From NCBI RefSeq assembly GCF_014235185.1, contig NZ_CP060131.1, positions 4,409,501 through 4,473,500 of the forward strand: DNA of 64,000 bases. Direction: 5' to 3'. How positions within the stretch are numbered: the first letter of the stretch is position 1; each line of letters begins with the position of its first letter. The position numbers were made by a program, and so were the translations under genes. Positions 6,083-21,069 of this stretch are shown here, piece after piece. Source of the stretch: Pseudonocardia petroleophila. Its GTDB lineage: Bacteria; Actinomycetota; Actinomycetes; Mycobacteriales; Pseudonocardiaceae. The notes under the pieces are model-generated. The model was not told the DNA's origin, made no database searches, and saw only the letters and a program-made list of their open reading frames with translations.

Positions 6083-6844
6083 TCAGCGCTGCTGCTGCTG
6101 GGCCAGCCGCTGCGCCACGACCTGCTGCATCCGCTGCAGCCCGGACAGCCCGAGCCCCGCGACCTGACCCTCCAGCTGCTGCAGCAGGTGGGGGTCGGCC
6201 ACGGTGTTCTCGCTGGACTGGATGAGCACCGTGCCGGCGCCGGTGAAGTCGAACTGGCGCTCCTCACCGGAGTTGCTCCCCAGCATCCCCATCGCCCCGC
6301 CGAGGAACCCGGTCATCCACCGCGCGTCGTAGTGGTGGCTGGGGGACGGGCAGTCGGCCCAGCCGACCAGTGCGTCCGGGTCGACCCGGATCGGGGGCTC
6401 GGCGAAGATCACCGGGCCGGAGCTGGAGGCCAGGAACTTGCCGGTGCCGATCAGCGTGAGGAACCCGGGCACGATCGACTGCTTGAGCTCGAGGGAGGAG
6501 TCGAACGCGAGCAGGTTCGCGGCGCGCAGCGTGAGGTTGCCGTCGTCGAGGTCGTAGCTGTTGATGTCGTAGCCGCGGTCGCCGAGGATCAGGTGCCCCG
6601 CGCCGGAGGCCACCACCCAGTCGCGGGTGTAGAGAGGTGCGGAGAACCGGGTCGCGACCATGCCGCCGATGCTCGCCGAGGTGAGCGGTTCGAAGCGGAT
6701 GCCGTTGCTGTGCGGGGCCGGGTAGTAGGCGATCATCCGGCCGGTCTGCATGAACAGCTGCCCGTCGAGGCGCACGCAGTAGGCGTAGTGGTTGCCGGGG
6801 AGGTTGTCGTTGTCCGGCAGCGTGCTCGGGTTGAGGGGGATCAC
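6083..6844 (-). CDS. AIM24/DUF124-family protein (third of three paralogues)
   Basis: A 253-residue AIM24-type beta-rich protein and the last gene of a three-paralogue operon. GTG 6844 overlaps the preceding stop as GTGA, implying translational coupling. Recognisable segments are SGAGHLILGDRGYDI, FDSSLELKQSI, FLTLIGTGKFLASS and GAGTVLIQSS. Its C-terminus adds a Gln/Leu-rich helix (QRMQQVVAQRLAQQQQR) absent from the other two. Yeast Aim24 is mitochondrial; bacterial AIM24 proteins are mostly uncharacterised and predicted to assemble. No membrane segment or catalytic residues are evident. It is the most diverged of the three copies. Confidence 0.85.
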   Translation of the reverse strand: MIPLNPSTLPDNDNLPGNHYAYCVRLDGQLFMQTGRMIAYYPAPHSNGIRFEPLTSASIGGMVATRFSAPLYTRDWVVASGAGHLILGDRGYDINSYDLDDGNLTLRAANLLAFDSSLELKQSIVPGFLTLIGTGKFLASSSGPVIFAEPPIRVDPDALVGWADCPSPSHHYDARWMTGFLGGAMGMLGSNSGEERQFDFTGAGTVLIQSSENTVADPHLLQQLEGQVAGLGLSGLQRMQQVVAQRLAQQQQR

Positions 6845-7491
6845 AGCTTCTGCTCCGATGCCTGGACGTAGACGGTTCCCTGGCCGGTGAGCTTGAGCTG
6901 CACGGCCTCGCCGGAGCCCCGGCCCACGGCGTCGCGCCAGCCCACCGAGGCGGCGATGTCGACGTTCACCTGCCCGACGTGCGCGACGTAGGCCTGCGGG
7001 TCGACCGCGACCGGCCGCCCGCCGACCGGGATCGCGATGGTGCCGCCGTGGCTCAGGACCGCGGCGGTGCCGTAGCCGTGCAGCTGCGTGGTGAACAGGC
7101 CCTGCCCGGAGACGGCGCCGCGGACGGCCCCGCGGATGCCGCCCTGGGAGCCGAGGAACACCACCGTGGACTGCAGCGCGGCGTCGTGCGCGACGAGCCG
7201 GTCGGCCTCGACGGACAGCGGCCCGGACCCGTCGAGCTCGATGATCGTCACGTAGAGGCCGCGGTAGCCGTAGTGCACCGTCCCGTGGCCCTGGGCGACC
7301 ATCATCGGGACCTGCTCGCCGGCCATCATCCGGCCGACCATGCCGCCCGCCCCGCCCTGGCCCGTGTGGACGGGGGAGAACCCGACGTCGCCGGTGTAGG
7401 CGAGCATCGCGCCGCGGCGGGCGAGGATCTCCCGCCCGGGTGCGACGGCGGCGGCGACGACCTTGTTGTTGATCTGCTCGAAGGTGCCCAT
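6841..7491 (-). CDS. AIM24/DUF124-family protein (second of three paralogues)
   Basis: This 216-residue protein begins at ATG 7491, whose A is also the last base of the upstream TGA (one-nt overlap), so it is tightly coupled. It shares the block order of its neighbours: MLAYTGDVGF, MMVAQGHGTVHYG, YVTIIELDGSGPLSVEADRL, VSGQGLFTTQLHGYGTAAVL, VAHVGQVNVD and GQGTVYVQASE. The Gly-rich loop after the first block (GQGGAGGMVGRMM) parallels MGGGDGLMAGLKRR of the first paralogue. There is no signal peptide or catalytic motif. The strong paralogy suggests gene duplication and possibly a hetero-oligomer. Biochemical role unknown. Confidence 0.88.
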   Translation of the reverse strand: MGTFEQINNKVVAAAVAPGREILARRGAMLAYTGDVGFSPVHTGQGGAGGMVGRMMAGEQVPMMVAQGHGTVHYGYRGLYVTIIELDGSGPLSVEADRLVAHDAALQSTVVFLGSQGGIRGAVRGAVSGQGLFTTQLHGYGTAAVLSHGGTIAIPVGGRPVAVDPQAYVAHVGQVNVDIAASVGWRDAVGRGSGEAVQLKLTGQGTVYVQASEQKL

Positions 7492-8114
7492 CAGCGCTCC
7501 TCGGGCTGGATGTAGACGACCCCGCTGCCGTCGAAGCGCAGGGAGAACGCCTCGCCGGAGCTCTCGCCGATCAGGTTGCGCCACGACACGTCGGTGACGA
7601 AGGACTGGTTGAGCTGGCCCTGGCTGGCGATGAACGCGTCGGGGTCGACCACCAGCGGGTACTGCGGCGAGACCTCCAGCGCGATCGGCGGCCCGCCCGC
7701 CGACAGCAGCGCGACGGTGCCGTACCCGGTGACGGTGGTGGTGAACAGCCCCTGCCCGGACGACGCTCCGCGCACCCCGGCGAACGCCACGTCGGTCCTG
7801 AGCTTGTCCGACAGCGCGAGCAGCTGCTCGGACTCGACCTTGAGCGTGTCGCCGTTCAGCTCGACGATCAGCACCTCCATCGCGTCCTTCGCGAACCACA
7901 CGGTGCCCTGCCCCGTGCAGTGCATGAGCGCGACGGACTCGCCCGCAGCGCGGCGCTTCAGGCCCGCCATCAGGCCGTCGCCGCCGCCCATGCCGGCGTT
8001 CTTGAACGTGACGTCGCCGGTGTAGGCGATCATCGACCCGGTCGCGGCGCGCACGGCGTCGCCCGCCAGGTCGATCTCCAGCACCCGCGACCCGTTGAGT
8101 CGGAATCCCTGCAC
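7491..8114 (-). CDS. AIM24/DUF124-family protein (first of three paralogues)
   Basis: This 207-residue first gene of the AIM24 operon starts at GTG 8114; no other start fits the frame, and a CAGGAT box lies seven nt upstream. Diagnostic blocks are MIAYTGDVTFKN (~28-39), ALMHCTGQGTVWFA, VLIVELNGDTLKVESEQLL, SSGQGLFTTTVTGYGTVALL and GSGVVYIQPEE. The fold is expected to be all-beta. The family is widespread in actinobacteria without an assigned reaction. It is divergent from the OleA-like gene with 142 nt between starts, so the two operons might share control, but I see no shared operator. Confidence 0.88.
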   Translation of the reverse strand: MQGFRLNGSRVLEIDLAGDAVRAATGSMIAYTGDVTFKNAGMGGGDGLMAGLKRRAAGESVALMHCTGQGTVWFAKDAMEVLIVELNGDTLKVESEQLLALSDKLRTDVAFAGVRGASSGQGLFTTTVTGYGTVALLSAGGPPIALEVSPQYPLVVDPDAFIASQGQLNQSFVTDVSWRNLIGESSGEAFSLRFDGSGVVYIQPEER

Positions 8115-8256: not shown

Positions 8257-9258
8257 GTGGGCGCGCGGATCGCGGGGGTGGAGGTGCACCTGCCCGGGTC
8301 GCGGGTCGGCACCGAGGAGGTGGAGGCGCGGATCGCGGCAGCGTCGGGGTGGTCACCGCCGTCCGGACTGATCCACCGGCTCACCGGCATCTCGTCGCGG
8401 CACGTGGCCGCCGACCACGAGCAGGCCTCCGACCTCGCCGTGGCCGCGGCCCGCAAGCTGCTGGCCGGCACGGGCACGGCGCCGCACGAGATCGACCTGC
8501 TGGTCTTCGCCTCGGCCAGCCAGGACATGGTCGAGCCGGCGACCGCGCACATCGTCGCGGCGAAGCTGGAGCTGTCGTGCCCGGTGATGGACGTCAAGAA
8601 CGCGTGCAACAGCGTGCTCAACGGCATGGAGGTCGCCGACGCGCTGATCGCCGTCGGTGGCTACGGGCGCGTGCTCGTCGTGAGCGGGGAGACGCCGTCG
8701 CGGGCGGTGCGGTGGGCCGTCGACGGCATCCGCGGGTTCCTGCGCGCGTTCCCCGGCTACACGCTCTCCGACGCGGGCGCGGCCGTGCTGCTGACGGCGG
8801 GGGAGCCCGGCACCGGCGTGCTCGGGTCCGGGTTCACCGCCGACTCCCGGCACTGGGAGGCGGGCACGCTGGCCGCGGGCGGGTCGCTGCACCCGCGCGA
8901 GGTCGAGCACACCTACTTCGCGATGGACTCCGCCCGGCTCAAGTCCGCGTTCCTGTCGGTGGGCACCGGGATCCTCGACGCGACGCTGGCCCGACTGGGT
9001 CTGGCCTGGGACGACATGGCGGTCGTCGCCGTGCACCAGGTCTCGCTGCCCTACCTGGAGGTGTTCGCGCGCGGTGCGGGGGTGCCGGGGGACAAGCTCG
9101 TGGTCACCGTCGCCGAGCACGGCAACGTCGCGTCGGCGAGCCTGCCGCTGCAGCTGGTCACCGCCCGGGAGCTGGGGCGCTGCGGGCCGGGTGACCTGGT
9201 CGCGCTCGTCGGGCTGGCCGGCGGGGTCAGCCTGGGCATCACGGTGGTGCGGCTGTGA
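8257..9258 (+). CDS. OleA-like beta-ketoacyl synthase III/thiolase
   Basis: A 333-residue KAS III-fold enzyme. The Cys-His-Asn triad is visible: Cys117 in VKNACNSVLNG, His260 in VAVHQVS and Asn290 in EHGNVASAS. Residue Glu93 in SQDMVEPATA matches the position where OleA enzymes carry the glutamate that deprotonates the second acyl chain, which FabH lacks; this and the NAC motif favour OleA-type head-to-head condensation of two acyl-CoAs over fatty-acid initiation. GGAGGGGG precedes GTG 8257. It heads a tight operon with GT2, P450, OleC-like and OleD-like genes, which supports the assignment. A KAS III involved in another lipid pathway remains possible. Confidence 0.8.
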   Translation: MGARIAGVEVHLPGSRVGTEEVEARIAAASGWSPPSGLIHRLTGISSRHVAADHEQASDLAVAAARKLLAGTGTAPHEIDLLVFASASQDMVEPATAHIVAAKLELSCPVMDVKNACNSVLNGMEVADALIAVGGYGRVLVVSGETPSRAVRWAVDGIRGFLRAFPGYTLSDAGAAVLLTAGEPGTGVLGSGFTADSRHWEAGTLAAGGSLHPREVEHTYFAMDSARLKSAFLSVGTGILDATLARLGLAWDDMAVVAVHQVSLPYLEVFARGAGVPGDKLVVTVAEHGNVASASLPLQLVTARELGRCGPGDLVALVGLAGGVSLGITVVRL

Positions 9259-9986
9259 GGCTGTTCGTCGTGGTCCCGGCGTTCGACGAGGCCGCGGGCA
9301 TCGGGGCCACGCTCGACGCGCTGGCCGCCCAGACCGACCAGGACTTCCGGCTCGTCGTCGTGGACAACGCCTCGACCGACGGCACCGCCGACGTCGTGCG
9401 CGCGCACCCGGTGCCGGCCGAGGTCGTCGACGAGCCGCGGCGCGGTACCGGGACCGCCGCCGACACCGGGATGCGGTTCGCGATCGCCCGGGGCGCGACG
9501 CACCTGGCCCGCACCGACGCCGACTGCCTGCCCGCCCCCGACTGGGTCGCGCGGGTCCGGGCCGCGTTCGCCGACCTCGACCTCGTCGCCGGGCGCCTGC
9601 TCCCGCGCACCGACGAGGGGCTGCCCGCGTGGCAGCGCGGGGTGCTCGTCGGGGCGGTGGGGGTGGCGGCCGCGTTCGGCCGCTTCCGGCCCGGCAACCG
9701 GGTGCCGGGCGCGCTCGGGCCCTACGTCATGTCGGCCGGCTGCAACATGGCGATCACCGCGGAGCTCTACGAGCGCGCGGGCGGCTTCCCGCGCACCCGC
9801 ATCCAGGACGTGCACGAGGACCGCGCGCTGGTCAACGCGGTGCGCCCGCTGACGGCCCGCTACGGGGCCCGGCGCGACGTCGTGGTGCGGGGGTCGAGCC
9901 GGCGGGTGCGGGCCTGGGGGCTGGTGCGGACGCTGGGCTGGTACGCCGACCACCGGTACCGCCCCGAGCACGTGGACATCCGATGA
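9255..9986 (+). CDS. GT2-family glycosyltransferase in the Ole-like operon
   Basis: A 243-residue GT-A fold enzyme. The N-terminal strand RLFVVVPAFDE (2-12), VVVDNASTDGTADVV for nucleotide binding, and the DxD motif in RTDADCLPAPDW (~90-100) define GT2. A later Asn-containing loop (YVMSAGCNMAITAELYERAGGF) and DVHEDRAL supply acceptor-side residues. No transmembrane helix is seen. The start overlaps the OleA-like stop as GTGA, and its own stop overlaps the P450 start as ATGA, so it is translationally coupled into the operon. It may glycosylate the operon's product or a lipid carrier; substrate unknown. A GT2 is not part of the classical oleABCD set, making it a notable addition. Confidence 0.82.
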   Translation: MRLFVVVPAFDEAAGIGATLDALAAQTDQDFRLVVVDNASTDGTADVVRAHPVPAEVVDEPRRGTGTAADTGMRFAIARGATHLARTDADCLPAPDWVARVRAAFADLDLVAGRLLPRTDEGLPAWQRGVLVGAVGVAAAFGRFRPGNRVPGALGPYVMSAGCNMAITAELYERAGGFPRTRIQDVHEDRALVNAVRPLTARYGARRDVVVRGSSRRVRAWGLVRTLGWYADHRYRPEHVDIR

Positions 9987-11137
9987 CCGACCGGTGGGAG
10001 CGCCGGGTCCAGCTCGGGGCGCACCCGCTCGCGTACCCGCTGGTCCGGGGCCTGGCGCGGGTCGGGCCGGTGGTGCGGGTGCCGCGGGTCGGGGTCGTCG
10101 TCAGCGACGCCGCGCTCGCGCGGGCCGTGCTCACCGACACCGCGTCGTTCACCAAGACCGGTCCGGGATCGCCCGCCGCGCTGTGGACGCCCGTCGTCGG
10201 GCCGTCGGTGCTGCTCAACATGGAGGGCGCGGAGCACGCGGCGCTGCGCCGCGCGCTGGCCGACCTGTTCACCCCGGCCGCGGTGGCGCAGCTGTGTGCG
10301 CGGGTGCTGGCCGAGCCGTGCGCGGCGCTGCGCGGTCGGCTGGCCGCGGGGGAGGCCGTCGACCTCGTCCCGGTGGCCCAGCGCGCGGCCGGCGCGGTGA
10401 TCGCGGGGCTGGTCGGGCTCGACGCCGGGGACGCCGCCGGGCCGGCGTTCGCGGCGGCGACGGCGGTGACCTCGATGGTGCGCCTGCGCCGCCCCGAGCT
10501 GACGCCGCGCCAGGTCGTGCGGGGCCGGGCGGCGCTGGCCGGGATCACGGCGCCCGCGGCCGCCGCCTACCGCGAGGGGGACCCCGCGACCGTGCCCGGC
10601 CGGATGCGCGAGCTGGGGCTCACCGAGCGCGAGGCGCTGGGGGCGGTGGCGGCGTTCGCACTGACCGGCACGGAGACGGTGGTGTCGTTCCTGCCGCGGC
10701 TGGTCGCCCTGCTGCACGACGCGGGGCTGCTGGGGGCGGTGGCGGCCGACCGCGGACGCGTGGACGCGTGCGTCGAGGAGGGCCTGCGGATCACCGTGCC
10801 GTCGCCGGTGATGCTGCGTCGCGTGGCCGCCCCGGCCCGGATCGGGACCGTCGCGGTGAGGCCGGGGGACCGCGTCGTCATCGCGACGGTCTCGGCCGCC
10901 CGGGCGCCCGGCGGCTTCGACCCGGACCGCCCGCACCCGCCCGCGTTGCGCCGGCTGTGGTTCGGGGCCGGTCCGCACTTCTGCCTCGGGATGCCGCTGG
11001 CCACGGCGCAGGTCCGGACGGTCCTCGACGCTCTGCTCGACGCCCACCTGGACCGGCCGCTGCGGATCACCCGCCGCCGCGTCGCCCACCGGGTGCTGAT
11101 CCCGGCCTACCGCGAGCTGGTGGTGCGCGGTGCCTGA
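9983..11137 (+). CDS. Cytochrome P450 in the Ole-like operon
   Basis: A soluble bacterial P450 of 384 residues. It has the I-helix oxygen-binding motif FALTGTETVV, the K-helix ExxR in VEEGLRITV, and the haem loop WFGAGPHFCLGM with the ligand Cys at 334. The N-terminus (DRWERRVQLGAHPLAYPLV) begins directly in the fold, without an anchor. ATG 9983 overlaps the GT2 stop by four nt, and its own stop overlaps the OleC-like start by eight nt. It needs ferredoxin and reductase, neither of which is in the window. Position suggests hydroxylation or oxidation of the condensed lipid or beta-lactone precursor; that is inference. Confidence 0.9.
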   Translation: MTDRWERRVQLGAHPLAYPLVRGLARVGPVVRVPRVGVVVSDAALARAVLTDTASFTKTGPGSPAALWTPVVGPSVLLNMEGAEHAALRRALADLFTPAAVAQLCARVLAEPCAALRGRLAAGEAVDLVPVAQRAAGAVIAGLVGLDAGDAAGPAFAAATAVTSMVRLRRPELTPRQVVRGRAALAGITAPAAAAYREGDPATVPGRMRELGLTEREALGAVAAFALTGTETVVSFLPRLVALLHDAGLLGAVAADRGRVDACVEEGLRITVPSPVMLRRVAAPARIGTVAVRPGDRVVIATVSAARAPGGFDPDRPHPPALRRLWFGAGPHFCLGMPLATAQVRTVLDALLDAHLDRPLRITRRRVAHRVLIPAYRELVVRGA

Positions 11138-12932
11138 GTCCGGCGCGGCGGCCCGCGACCTGCTGAGCCTGGTCCTCGACGCCGCCGACCGGCACGGCGA
11201 CGCCCCGGCCCTCACCGGCCCACCACCCCGGCGCGGCGCGTTCCGCGGGGCAGGAACGGCGTTCCGCGGAACGCGGCAGGACGGGGCCGGGGGAGCCTCC
11301 GGCAGGGCAGGAACGGCGTTCCGCGGAACGCGGCAGGACGAGCGGGGAACCTCCGGCGGGATACGCCGCGCGTTCCGCGGAACGCGGAAGGACGGGTGCG
11401 AGGGAACGTCCCGTGGGACAGGAACGGCGTTCCGCGGAACCCGGCCCGCCGAGGTCACGGAGCCGCACGCGGCGACGGAGCCGGCCGGGGTGACCCTGAC
11501 GTACGCCCAGCTCGGCGACCGGATCCGCGCCGTCGCCGCCCGGCTGACCGCGGCCGGCTTCGCCCCGGGGCAGCGCATGCTGTTCTCCGTCCGCCCGTCA
11601 CCGGACTCGGTGGTGCTCGCGCTGGGGGTCGTCGCGGCGGGCGGGACGGTGGTGTTCGTCGACCCCGGCGTCGGGCCCGCGCTGTTCGCCGCCCGCACCG
11701 AGCTGGCCGCGCCGGGCTGGGCCGCGGCGGAGTCGGTCCTCTACGCCGCGGGCCGCCGCCCGCTGCGGGCGCTGGCCCGTCGCCGCGGGGTGCTGCTGCC
11801 CGACTACGCGCGGCTGCCCGTCCGCCACGTGCGGGCCGGTCGGTGGCTGCCGGGCGTCCCGCGGAACGCGGTACCGCTGCGCAGCCTGCTGCGGCCGGTG
11901 CCGCGCCGGTCGGTCGCCTCGGACCCCGGGCAGGACGCCGTCGTCGTCTTCACCGCCGGGACCACCGCCGCACCGAAGGCCGTCGTGCACACCCGGGGCT
12001 CGCTCGGCGCGGCGCTGGACGTGCTGTCCACCCGCTGCGCACTCGGCCCGGGCACCCGCGTGCACACCGACCAGTTCCTGCTCGGGCTCCCGGCGCTGGT
12101 CGGCGGCGGGCACTGGTCGATGCCGCCCTACGGGTTGGCCCCCGCCGCGCGGCCGGACGAGCTGGCGCGCGGGCTGGACGGCGCCACCCACACGTTCCTC
12201 GTCCCCGCCGACCTCGCCGCGGTCCTCGACGCCGTCGAGCGCGGGCAGGTGGCGCTGCCCGCCTCCCTGCGGCAGGTCCTGCTCGGTGCGGCGCCGGTGC
12301 TGCCCCCGCTGCTGCGCCGGGCGGGCGCCGCGCTGCCGGGCGTCGAGTTCCTCGCGGTCTACGGGATGACCGAGATCCTGCCCGTCGCGGTCGCCACCGC
12401 GGCCGAGAAGCTCGCCCACCCCGGGCCCGGTGACCTGGTCGGGACCCCGCTGCCCGGTGTCCGCGCCCGCGTCGACGGGGACGGACGGCTCGTCGTCGGC
12501 GGCGCGAACCTCGGCCACTACCTCGGCGAGGAGCCCGCCGACGAGCACACCACCGGCGACCTCGCGACGCTCACCGACGACGGGGCGATCGTCCTCGGCG
12601 GCCGCGCCACCGACATGATCATCCGCGGCCGCACCAACATCTACCCCGGCCTGCACGAGCCCGCCATCGCCGCGCTGCCCGGCGTCGCGCGGGCGGTGCT
12701 GGTCGGGGTGCCGGACGCGATCGGCGACGACCGGGTGGTGCTCGCCGTCGTCGCCGCTGCGCTGGAGCCGCCCGGGCTCGCCGACCGGGTGCGGGCGGCG
12801 CTGCCGCAGGTGGTCGACGCGTCCGCGCTGCCCGACGAGATCGTCCTGGTCGATGACATGCCGGTGGCCGGGCGCACCCGCAAGACCGACCGGGCCGCCC
12901 TGCGGGACCGGCTCGCGCGGGCGCGGCGATGA
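11130..12932 (+). CDS. OleC-like adenylate-forming enzyme (beta-lactone synthetase candidate) with repeat insertion
   Basis: A 600-residue ANL-superfamily enzyme. The P-loop-like motif FTAGTTAAPKAVV (274-286), YGMTE (411-415), the TGDL block and the C-terminal catalytic Lys region GRTRKTDR are present. OleC enzymes use ATP to close beta-hydroxy acids to beta-lactones; assignment here rests on the neighbouring OleA- and OleD-like genes. Residues ~37-106 are a foreign-looking Gly/Arg/Thr-rich insert (AFRGTRQDG-type units) encoded by palindromic DNA repeats, placed between the N-terminal helix and the first strand (TLTYAQLGD), where family members have a short linker. The frame is unbroken through it. 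The start GTG overlaps the P450 stop. Confidence 0.75.
   Translation: MPESGAAARDLLSLVLDAADRHGDAPALTGPPPRRGAFRGAGTAFRGTRQDGAGGASGRAGTAFRGTRQDERGTSGGIRRAFRGTRKDGCEGTSRGTGTAFRGTRPAEVTEPHAATEPAGVTLTYAQLGDRIRAVAARLTAAGFAPGQRMLFSVRPSPDSVVLALGVVAAGGTVVFVDPGVGPALFAARTELAAPGWAAAESVLYAAGRRPLRALARRRGVLLPDYARLPVRHVRAGRWLPGVPRNAVPLRSLLRPVPRRSVASDPGQDAVVVFTAGTTAAPKAVVHTRGSLGAALDVLSTRCALGPGTRVHTDQFLLGLPALVGGGHWSMPPYGLAPAARPDELARGLDGATHTFLVPADLAAVLDAVERGQVALPASLRQVLLGAAPVLPPLLRRAGAALPGVEFLAVYGMTEILPVAVATAAEKLAHPGPGDLVGTPLPGVRARVDGDGRLVVGGANLGHYLGEEPADEHTTGDLATLTDDGAIVLGGRATDMIIRGRTNIYPGLHEPAIAALPGVARAVLVGVPDAIGDDRVVLAVVAAALEPPGLADRVRAALPQVVDASALPDEIVLVDDMPVAGRTRKTDRAALRDRLARARR
11237..11445 (+). repeat. In-frame palindromic repeat array inside OleC-like gene
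   Basis: Four perfect copies of GTTCCGCGGAAC sit at 11261-11272, 11318-11329, 11372-11383 and 11429-11440, spaced 57, 54 and 57 nt, all multiples of three. A partial copy (GTTCCGCGG) starts at 11240. Three copies extend to the 16-nt palindrome GCGTTCCGCGGAACGC, and three carry the upstream GGAACGGC, which can form an alternative hairpin with GTTCC. All six translated frames of the array stay largely stop-free. Confidence 0.9.
11856..11876 (+). repeat. Degenerate further copy of the palindromic unit
   Basis: GTCCCGCGGAACGCGGTACC matches the repeat core with one change in the left arm. It lies in the same gene between the N-terminal part and the FTAGTT motif, encoding GVPRNAVPL, which corresponds to a different reading frame of the unit than the main array uses. 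Confidence 0.55.
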
Positions 12933-12972
12933 CGGGCGCGGCGATGAGGGGCGCGGCGATGACGGGCGCGGC
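12921..12972 (+). repeat. 15-bp tandem repeat at the OleC-like gene 3' end
   Basis: GCGCGGCGATGAC recurs at 12921, 12936 (one mismatch) and 12951 with a truncated fourth unit at 12966, period 15. The first unit contains the OleC-like stop TGA. It lies in the 106-nt gap before the reductase gene and probably arose by slippage. Confidence 0.7.
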
Positions 12973-13038
12973 CCGCACCGGTGCGGGCAGTGCCGCTCCG
13001 GGAACGGCCGGGTGCGACGTCCGGCGGGAGGGGGCGGC

Positions 13039-13920
13039 GTGCGGATCGCGGTGACCGGGGCCGCCGGGTTCGTCGGCTCCGCGGTGGTGGCGGCGGCGCG
13101 CGCCCGGGGCTGGGAGGTCCACCCGCTCACCCGGCGCGAGTGGGACGTCGCCGCCGGGCCCCTGCCCGGCCCGCCGGCCGTCGACGCCGTGGTGCACGCC
13201 GCCGCGGCCGTCACCGACTGGGCCGACCCGGTCCGGGTCTGGGCGGCCAACCTGCACGGCACCCGGCACGTCGCCGCGACCTTCCCCGGTGTGCGGCTGG
13301 TCCACCTCTCGACCGCGAGCGTCTACGACCCGTTCGTCCCGACCGTCGACGCGCCGGAGTCGGCGGGGCCCGCGGCGCGGCACCTCACCGCGTACGGGGC
13401 GTCCAAGGCGGCGGCCGAGCGGCTGCTGGCCGGGCGGCCGGAGACGGTGGTGCTGCGCCCGCACGCCGTCTACGGCCGCGGCGACCCGACGCTGCTCCCG
13501 CGCATCCTCGGTGCGGTCCGCGGCCGCACGCTCGTCGTCGCCGGGGACGGCGGCGCCCGCCACACCCTGACCGCGGTCGGCACGCTCGCCGAAGCGTGCC
13601 TGCTCGGGTGCACCGGCCCGCCGGGCACCTACAACGTCGGCGACGCCGAACCGGTCACCCTGGACGCCGCGCTCGGCGGGCTGCTCGCCGCCCGCGGGAT
13701 CGACGCGCGCATCCGGCACCTGCCGCGCCGGGCGGCGTGGGGGCTCGCCGGGGTCGCCGAGGCGGTGGCCTGCGCGCTGCGCCGGCCGGACCCGCCGCGG
13801 CTCACCCGCTACGCCGTGAGCCAGCTCGGCACGGAGCGCACGCTCGACCTCACCGCCGCCCGCACCCGCCTGCACCTCGACCCGGCGCCCACCTCCTTCG
13901 CCGGCGCCGACGACTGGTAG
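13039..13920 (+). CDS. OleD-like NAD(P)-dependent 3-beta-HSD-family reductase
   Basis: A 293-residue extended short-chain dehydrogenase. It has the Rossmann motif TGAAGFVG (6-13), VVHAAAAV (~51-58), STASVYDP and the catalytic Tyr119/Lys123 in YGASK. The tail (TRYAVSQLGTERTLDLTAAR) resembles the OleD/3-beta-hydroxysteroid dehydrogenase family. OleD reduces the 2-alkyl-3-ketoacid from OleA to the 3-hydroxyacid that OleC activates, so it completes an A-C-D set. GTG 13039 is chosen because GGGAGGGGG precedes it. It is separated from the adenylating gene by 106 nt but still probably cotranscribed. A generic sugar epimerase is less likely given the context. Confidence 0.8.
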   Translation: MRIAVTGAAGFVGSAVVAAARARGWEVHPLTRREWDVAAGPLPGPPAVDAVVHAAAAVTDWADPVRVWAANLHGTRHVAATFPGVRLVHLSTASVYDPFVPTVDAPESAGPAARHLTAYGASKAAAERLLAGRPETVVLRPHAVYGRGDPTLLPRILGAVRGRTLVVAGDGGARHTLTAVGTLAEACLLGCTGPPGTYNVGDAEPVTLDAALGGLLAARGIDARIRHLPRRAAWGLAGVAEAVACALRRPDPPRLTRYAVSQLGTERTLDLTAARTRLHLDPAPTSFAGADDW

Positions 13921-19711: not shown

Positions 19712-21069
19712 AGGAACCTCTCGCTCAGCCACGCCGTGACCGCGTCCAGCACCTCGGGCGCGATCGTCGTCTCGATGGTGCCGTACTCGCCGATCGCGCC
19801 CGTGGCCGTCGGCTGCATGAGGTGGTTGAGGCCGGGGAAGGTCCGGACGGTGGCGTCCGGGCCGCCCGCGAGCAGGTCCCGCATCGGGCCCTCGCTCTGC
19901 GACGGCGGCACCTGCAGGTCCTTCTCCCCGAAGAACGCGAACACCGGCACGTCGAGCGAGCGCAGGGCGGGGGCGGGGTCGTGGAGCAGGAACGGGGCGA
20001 GGTCGAGCGTCGAGTCCACGATCGCGTCGACCTGCTCCGGGCCCGGGCGCTGCGACTCCGGCAGCGTCGCGAGCTGGCCGATGATCTCGTCGCGCGACCG
20101 CGCCCGGGCGGCCTCGACGTCCCCCGCGCGCAGCAGGTCGGTGAACTCCGCCAGGAACGCCAGGTAGGCGTCGGTCTCGGCGGCGGGCGCGCCCGCCTGC
20201 TCGCGCAGCAGCCGGTTCTGCAGGATCAGCACGTCCTCGCCGGACACGGCGGGCCCGGCCATCGAGACCACGAACGCGACGTCGCCCCGCGACGCGGCGA
20301 GCGGGCCCAGGTAGCCGCCCTCGCTGTGCCCGAACAGCCCGACGCGGGCCGGGTCGATCCCGTCGGTGCCGCGCAGGAACGCGACGCCGGCGAGCGCGTC
20401 GTCGGCCAGCACCTCGTACGGCGTGCCGGACGCCGCTCCACCGGACCCGCCGACGCCCCGGTCGTCGGTGCGCAGCACGGCGAACCCGGCGCGGGTGAGG
20501 GTGTCGGCGAGCAGCAGGAACGGCTTGTGGCCCTCGATCGTCTCGTCGCGGTCCTGCGCACCGCTGCCGGTGATCATGACGACGGCGGGGAACCGCCCGG
20601 CGCCGTCGGGGCGGGTGAGCGTGCCGGCCAGGGTGACCTCGCCGCTGGGGAAGGTCACGTCGTCGGCGCGGTAGGGGAACGGCGGCCGCGGCTCCTGCGG
20701 GCGGGCCGCGGCCACCGGCTCGCCGCGGGTCAGGGCGAACGGGGTGGCCGGGGCGGCGCCCTGGGTGTAGTCGCCGCTGATCGTGTCGCCGTCGAGCGTT
20801 CCGCGGAACGTCGCGCCGCCGGGGGCGTCGGGCAGGGCGAACGTGACGGCGGCGCCGTCGACCCGCACGTCGCGCAGCGGGAGGCCGGTGACCCCCTGCG
20901 CGGGGATGTCGATCCCGCCGCCGTCACCGGAGAAGGTGAGCCGGACCTGCAGCGGCGAGCCGGGCGCCTCGATCCGGCCCTGCCAGGTGCCCTCGATCGC
21001 GGTGGGCCCGGGCGGGGCTCCGCACGCAGCCGTCAGGACGAGCACGACCGCCATGATCCACCACCTCAC
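19708..21069 (-). CDS. Lipoprotein alpha/beta-hydrolase (S33/DAAP-like)
   Basis: A 453-residue lipoprotein. The N-terminus MRWWIMAVVLVLTAAC is a lipoprotein signal. Residues ~25-110 form a beta-rich N-domain (TAIEGTWQGRIE...GDTISGDY), followed by an alpha/beta-hydrolase domain with VVMITGSGAQDRDETI, the nucleophile elbow GHSEGGYLG, a late Asp in FFGEKDLQVPP and His in GLNHLMQPT. GTG 21069 is chosen because TACGGT (21076-21081) ends exactly six nt upstream, as for other leaderless genes here. The family cleaves esters or small peptides extracellularly. It is coupled by GTGA to the decarboxylase. Confidence 0.87.
   Translation of the reverse strand: MRWWIMAVVLVLTAACGAPPGPTAIEGTWQGRIEAPGSPLQVRLTFSGDGGGIDIPAQGVTGLPLRDVRVDGAAVTFALPDAPGGATFRGTLDGDTISGDYTQGAAPATPFALTRGEPVAAARPQEPRPPFPYRADDVTFPSGEVTLAGTLTRPDGAGRFPAVVMITGSGAQDRDETIEGHKPFLLLADTLTRAGFAVLRTDDRGVGGSGGAASGTPYEVLADDALAGVAFLRGTDGIDPARVGLFGHSEGGYLGPLAASRGDVAFVVSMAGPAVSGEDVLILQNRLLREQAGAPAAETDAYLAFLAEFTDLLRAGDVEAARARSRDEIIGQLATLPESQRPGPEQVDAIVDSTLDLAPFLLHDPAPALRSLDVPVFAFFGEKDLQVPPSQSEGPMRDLLAGGPDATVRTFPGLNHLMQPTATGAIGEYGTIETTIAPEVLDAVTAWLSERFL

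Follow-up and report, generated by a model that had tools for sequence, protein, structure and literature searches.

The locus examined here raises the question of whether an operon with genes like oleA, oleC and oleD, together with a glycosyltransferase and a cytochrome P450 and without oleB, makes a lipid that keeps a β-lactone, as an earlier note on the same DNA had proposed. We analysed the 64-kb window (the whole stretch of Pseudonocardia petroleophila DNA under study), the remainder of the genome and related loci in other genomes. Pfam agreed with the earlier note for every class among the five same-strand genes, which encode a KAS III (gene A), a GT2 glycosyltransferase, a P450, an adenylating enzyme (gene C) and an SDR (gene D; Table 1). 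The A/GT2, GT2/P450 and P450/C junctions overlap by 4, 4 and 8 bases, and C and D are separated by a gap of 106 bases, with D read from a start that gives a protein as long as in near relatives. Divergent from the operon, on the - strand, are three consecutive AIM24-family genes (6083-8114).

Table 1 Features of the operon and of related sites in the same genome. Positions are those of the 64-kb window unless marked as genome positions.
Feature	Position	Strand	Basis or remark
Gene A, OleA-like KAS III, 333 aa	8257-9258	+	Pfam; tree; residues Glu93, Cys117, His260, Asn290
GT2 glycosyltransferase, 243 aa	9255-9986	+	PF00535, E 9.5e-20; TDAD and EDRA motifs
Cytochrome P450, 384 aa	9983-11137	+	PF00067; heme-ligand Cys, I-helix TGTET
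Gene C, OleC-like adenylating enzyme, 600 aa	11130-12932	+	PF00501/PF13193; tree; motifs
Lineage-specific insert in gene C, residues 37-115	11238-11474	+	pLDDT <50; four palindromic repeat copies
Repeat copies in the insert	11258, 11315, 11369, 11426 (span 11258-11442)		
Fifth repeat copy in gene C	11853-11869		with mismatch
Gene D, OleD-like extended SDR reductase, 293 aa	13039-13920	+	PF01370
Further repeat site outside operon	20795-20811		
Orthologue of the second P450 family	genome 2202368-2203519 (within 2202362-2203600)	-	57% identity; unlinked to operon
Canonical oleA-oleBC-oleD cluster	genome 4129756-4134322	-	~280 kb from operon
OleB-OleC fusion, 850 aa	genome 4130745-4133297	-	haloalkane-dehalogenase-like and AMP-binding halves

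Conservation and gene order in actinobacteria

The five-gene operon is real and widely conserved in actinobacteria. Gene A was found in 15 of 120 relatives (this genome among them; 14 belong to the genus and one lies outside it), and a scan of named-species genomes yielded 515 stretches with some relative of A (E 1e-3), the best 80 of which were analysed. The order A-GT2-P450-C-D was kept in 11 of the 14 relative regions fetched and in 74 of these best 80 loci, two sets that overlap, with some genomes in both, which bears out both the proposal of a single operon and the expectation that its order would be conserved in related genomes. Exceptions among the 14 were a contig end (L028), a region with only A, P450 and D (L035) and a fragmentary one (L036), while the six deviating loci among the 80 comprised two contig ends (L073 and L130), three gene-poor loci (L096, L108 and L139) and a locus in which C is inverted (L144). 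In L035 and L139 (Fodinicola feengrottensis) GT2 and C are missing and the other three genes are present, and in L035 both A and the P450 are split across two reading frames, as in a decaying or misassembled copy. Genera represented among the best 80 included Pseudonocardia, Saccharothrix, Lentzea, Saccharopolyspora, Arthrobacter, Paenarthrobacter, Streptomyces, Actinomadura, Catellatospora and others, and at E 1e-40 gene A was detected in 3 of 396 sampled genomes of the phylum, this one included. The distribution of the operon is widespread but patchy.

A second gene order, A-GT2-C-P450-D, occurred in two loci whose A is ~48% identical to operon A (L069 and L070). We also fetched 12 loci with a KAS III scoring below the OleA cut-off from a 397-genome sample of the taxonomic order. 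Three of them carried A-GT2-P450-C-D (L237, L242, L243) and three A-GT2-C-P450-D (L236, L240, L241), and both gene orders occur within one OleA-like clade. Two had A, C, P450 and D, with GT2 not found (L238 and L247), and two had the KAS III only (L245 and L246). The remaining two were mosaics, L239 combining an operon-type KAS III, a P450 and canonical-type C and D, and L244 having an operon-type A beside a C and a D of canonical type, with an OleB-like match (35%) upstream of this diverged cluster.

The neighbourhood was assessed in 31 chosen loci, setting aside the core genes and reading frames overlapping them (29, 29 and 11 loci). No further family was present in more than 8 of the 31 loci, and those in 8 and 7 loci came mainly from Actinomadura and Spirillospora. 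An extra P450 lay beside 42 of the 80 loci, within ~1.6 kb upstream of A in 37 and just downstream of D in 5. These flanking P450s are one family (median identity 57.6% among themselves and 37% to the core P450), each having another of the 42 as its best match. This genome encodes an orthologue at a distant site (Table 1), where it adjoins an AMP-binding gene.

Kinship and conserved residues of the enzymes

The catalytic residues that the earlier note had assigned to gene A were at their given positions and invariant in 14 alignment rows. Aligned with X. campestris OleA, the protein has the E93-P94 base segment and the Cys/His/Asn triad of OleA, and these residues were kept in all 51 KAS IIIs outside canonical clusters (including L200, L245 and L246, from outside such operons) and in all 15 canonical ones; residue counts here and below (51, 48, 46 rows etc.) include variant-cluster rows. 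In a tree of 32 rows, the operon type formed a clade of 16 rows (support 100/99) that was sister (93/81) to canonical OleA, a clade of 10 rows including the X. campestris structure (100/100), plus three other KAS IIIs. This OleA-like branch was split from FabH at 100/100, with an outgroup of only three FabH-type rows, one of them long-branched, and gene A did not join FabH, a grouping that the earlier note had named as fatal to its proposal.

On this tree we reject a FabH identity, although HMM and fold rankings taken by themselves would point to one. The best NCBIfam model for operon A was FabH-type (163.8 bits vs. 156.6 for the OleA model NF006720), the OleA score being below the cut-off of 285 bits, which the canonical OleA of the same genome exceeded at 443.2 bits. 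Foldseek with the predicted structure (pLDDT 85.7) gave a FabH as the top match, with OleA entries starting at rank 9 and TM-scores alike, so the fold cannot tell OleA from FabH. An OleA-like assignment of gene A is supported by its residues and placement.

In a tree of 56 rows, with the 30 best-scoring of 71 AMP-binding matches in the same genome as outgroup, operon-type C and canonical OleC were sisters (99/94), and a larger quick tree again placed the operon type with canonical OleC (support 91). The ligase keeps its adenylation motifs, and a lack of OleC-like active-site residues was what the earlier note had named as a refutation: the core residues of A3, A5, A7, A8 and A10 were invariant in a 33-row alignment that includes three canonical OleCs, while strict whole-motif patterns were matched in 14 of 45 operon-type rows for A3 and 19 of 45 for A10. 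A YGMTExLP-like A5 motif was common to both C types (23/45 operon-type, 12/17 canonical and 0/30 other rows by strict pattern). The A8 motif of operon-type C (consensus GRkKDMiiRGxtNiYPGLYEP) is unlike that of canonical OleC and nearer that of common acyl ligases. Operon C fell below the OleC cut-offs (NF045786, 74 bits vs. 900; NF006754, 127 bits vs. 478), as did the canonical OleBC of this genome (266 and 340 bits). An amide synthetase and aryl-acid adenylating enzymes are among the folds closest to it, and the structure search did not set OleC apart from other ligases. Kinship and motifs support an OleC-like assignment of gene C.

The lineage-specific insert in gene C holds four copies of a palindromic repeat with the core GCGTTCCGCGGAACGC (Table 1), which has 13 exact sites genome-wide, 3 of them within the 64-kb window. 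The core recurs in gene C of the near relatives L023, L024 and L025, with 3 to 9 copies that in L024 are mostly at 33-base spacing, while L026, L027 and L029 showed no copy in this gene.

Of the OleC-like and OleD-like enzymes that had been proposed to follow the KAS III, the first was supported by its tree, while the second was not placed by trees. The best NCBIfam match of gene D was OleD (NF042422), at 99.9 bits vs. a cut-off of 580, and the canonical OleD of the same genome was also below this cut-off (297.1 bits). All 48 rows from outside canonical clusters have the SDR Ser/Tyr/Lys residues. The free tree joined operon-type D to two further SDRs from the same genome (90/90) and set canonical OleD in a separate clade, and a tree constrained to hold operon D with OleD was 14.7 log units worse and not rejected (p-AU 0.263). 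Gene D may encode either an OleD or a reductase that was recruited separately. In the two accessory enzymes, conserved GT2 residues were D88, D90, D189 and R190, and the P450 rows kept the heme Cys (46/46), the I-helix Thr (46/46), ExxR (45/46) and the I-helix Glu (40/46), the row of L236 probably being a neighbouring P450.

OleB and the canonical olefin cluster of this genome

We found no OleB in the 64-kb window, consistent with the earlier note. The OleB of this genome gave at best a 46-residue match there (E 0.001), and the three Abhydrolase_1 matches in the window have nucleophile elbows with Ser (GHSEG, GHSEGG and GHSDG). Having no OleB, the operon is not a canonical oleABCD olefin cluster. 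Nor is the genome free of oleB, as it would be for a nocardiolactone (Nlt) type system: searching it with the OleD model gave 296.6 bits at 4129768 vs. 84.3 for operon D and pointed to a canonical oleA-oleBC-oleD cluster, whose identity to the operon over the BLAST-aligned part is 30% for A, 31% for C and 37% for D. This cluster refutes the absence of oleB from the genome, and the argument that the product is retained for want of OleB fails here.

Of the 120 relatives, 15 carry gene A, 14 carry OleBC and 3 carry both, indicating no association (Fisher P = 0.38, only a guide since the genomes are related). A full OleBC match was absent in 12 of the 15 relatives with gene A and in 54 of 56 further genome entries, which stand for 12 genomes plus 44 named loci from the best 80 (56 of 68 candidates). 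These entries include variant clusters (G563, G584, G684, G789 and the genome of L144) and probably count one genome twice (G772 and G845, equal in size, with a G772 contig matching that of L077 in length). The two entries with a full match were both Paenarthrobacter, and a third matched the OleC half only. Because the fused OleBC served as query at E 1e-60, a separate and diverged OleB such as the one suggested by the match in L244 could escape this search. The operon seems independent of OleBC, and because its family mostly occurs without OleBC, the idea of an OleB-free system is supported for the family, though not for this genome.

Candidate products and their precedents

The operon is a further example of a kind of cluster already predicted in print. 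The earlier note suggested that its product type was undescribed, but a hydroxylated, glycosylated β-lactone was put forward in 2020 as a possible product of Actinoplanes atraurantiacus, for which the available text describes a region with OleA, glycosyltransferase, OleC, P450 and OleD in a genome without a candidate oleB (Smith et al. 2020, PMC7064751). The likeness, judged by the gene classes named there and not by sequences, extends to the same five classes, a cluster without OleB and the same predicted product. The two differ in gene order, A-GT-C-P450-D in A. atraurantiacus and A-GT-P450-C-D here, and in oleB, which is absent from that genome according to the same text and present here as oleBC elsewhere in the genome. 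The available text also reports that the recoverable Actinoplanes OleA precipitated and condensed none of the tested acyl-CoAs, whereas in cells the enzyme acted on a pNP ester, and this text does not mention the second P450 in describing the cluster type (PMC7064751).

With the canonical oleA-oleBC-oleD cluster the operon shares a related A and C and an SDR reductase, and it differs in lacking OleB and in its added GT2 and P450. Two KAS III subunits set the Nlt and lipstatin (Lst) clusters apart from the operon, and these clusters are not known to carry a GT2/P450 pair. The likeness to these systems lies in oleACD-type genes without oleB, and both are described as leading to a β-lactone product in the text available to us (PMC7064751). 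We found no reported product of a cluster like the operon in titles and abstracts, with subscription journals mostly outside the search. New here are the two gene orders, the second P450, the coexistence with a canonical olefin cluster and the uncertain reductase.

The reading we favour, to which we give an even chance, is that the operon encodes a pathway related to Ole that does without OleB and makes an oxidised, glycosylated β-lactone lipid. Gene A would join two acyl-CoAs head to head into a 2-alkyl-3-keto acid, Glu93 serving as the base and Cys117 carrying the acyl group, and D would turn the keto group into a hydroxyl. The P450, along with the second P450 in many genomes, would hydroxylate a chain, GT2 would transfer a sugar onto a hydroxyl, and C would adenylate the acid and then close the β-lactone ring. 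We infer each of these reactions, and the order in which they would occur, the sugar, the position of the hydroxyl and the lactone are likewise predicted. In favour of this reading are the OleA residues, the tree placements of A and C, the shared A5 motif, the conserved gene order, the scarcity of OleBC among carriers and the published Actinoplanes prediction; the curated cut-offs missed by A, C and D, the FabH-type rankings of A, the A8 motif of C, the free tree of D and the lack of condensation by the Actinoplanes OleA speak against it.

The main rival, which we consider rather unlikely, is a glycolipid without a β-lactone, in which GT2 would act on the 3-hydroxyl made by D and C would activate the acid and link it as an ester to a sugar or to some other hydroxyl, so that an ester or macrolactone glycolipid results. 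With the 3-hydroxyl glycosylated, no β-hydroxyl would be left for ring closure. The position of GT2 directly after A, found in 78 of the 80 best loci, fits this arrangement, as do the departure of operon-type C from canonical OleC in A8 and the amide synthetase and aryl-acid adenylating enzymes among its nearest folds, but the closest kin of C is OleC and the P450 offers another site for the sugar. Sugar-linked 2-methyl-3-hydroxy-acid macrodilactones such as glucolipsin are known from actinobacteria and lend the rival a precedent with no gene link seen; in the source text available, however, they carry a 2-methyl or no branch, not a long 2-alkyl chain (PMC4365757). As a product lead, the accessible text of the arthrobacilin, glucolipsin and cycloviracin literature yielded no genes.

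We regard as doubtful a broader possibility, in which the operon and its relatives would be a large side branch of OleA and OleC that departed from β-lactone chemistry. Gene C would then be an ester- or macrolactone-forming synthetase, and GT2 and two P450 families would give a new class of oxidised 2-alkyl-3-glycosyloxy-acid lipids, made in this organism beside the olefin pathway.

It is improbable that A is some other KAS III, for instance a decarboxylative one, with an ordinary β-hydroxy-acid glycoside as the operon product. Such an enzyme would agree with the first-ranking FabH-type model and fold, and with the lack of condensation by the Actinoplanes enzyme in the available account, but the Glu that X. 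campestris OleA is reported there to require (PMC7064751) is invariant here and the tree parts the A family from FabH. There is only a slight chance that the second cluster's OleBC acts in trans, converting the operon's β-lactone to a hydroxylated, glycosylated alkene, since OleB, though encoded in this genome as a fusion with OleC, is tethered to its own OleC, and the operon mostly occurs without OleBC (present in 3 of 15 relatives, with a full match in 2 of 56 entries).

Product predictions should count in the second P450. The operon is worth a product search: named strains with and without OleBC allow clean comparisons, and a strain with both Ole-type routes is a natural test of their separation.
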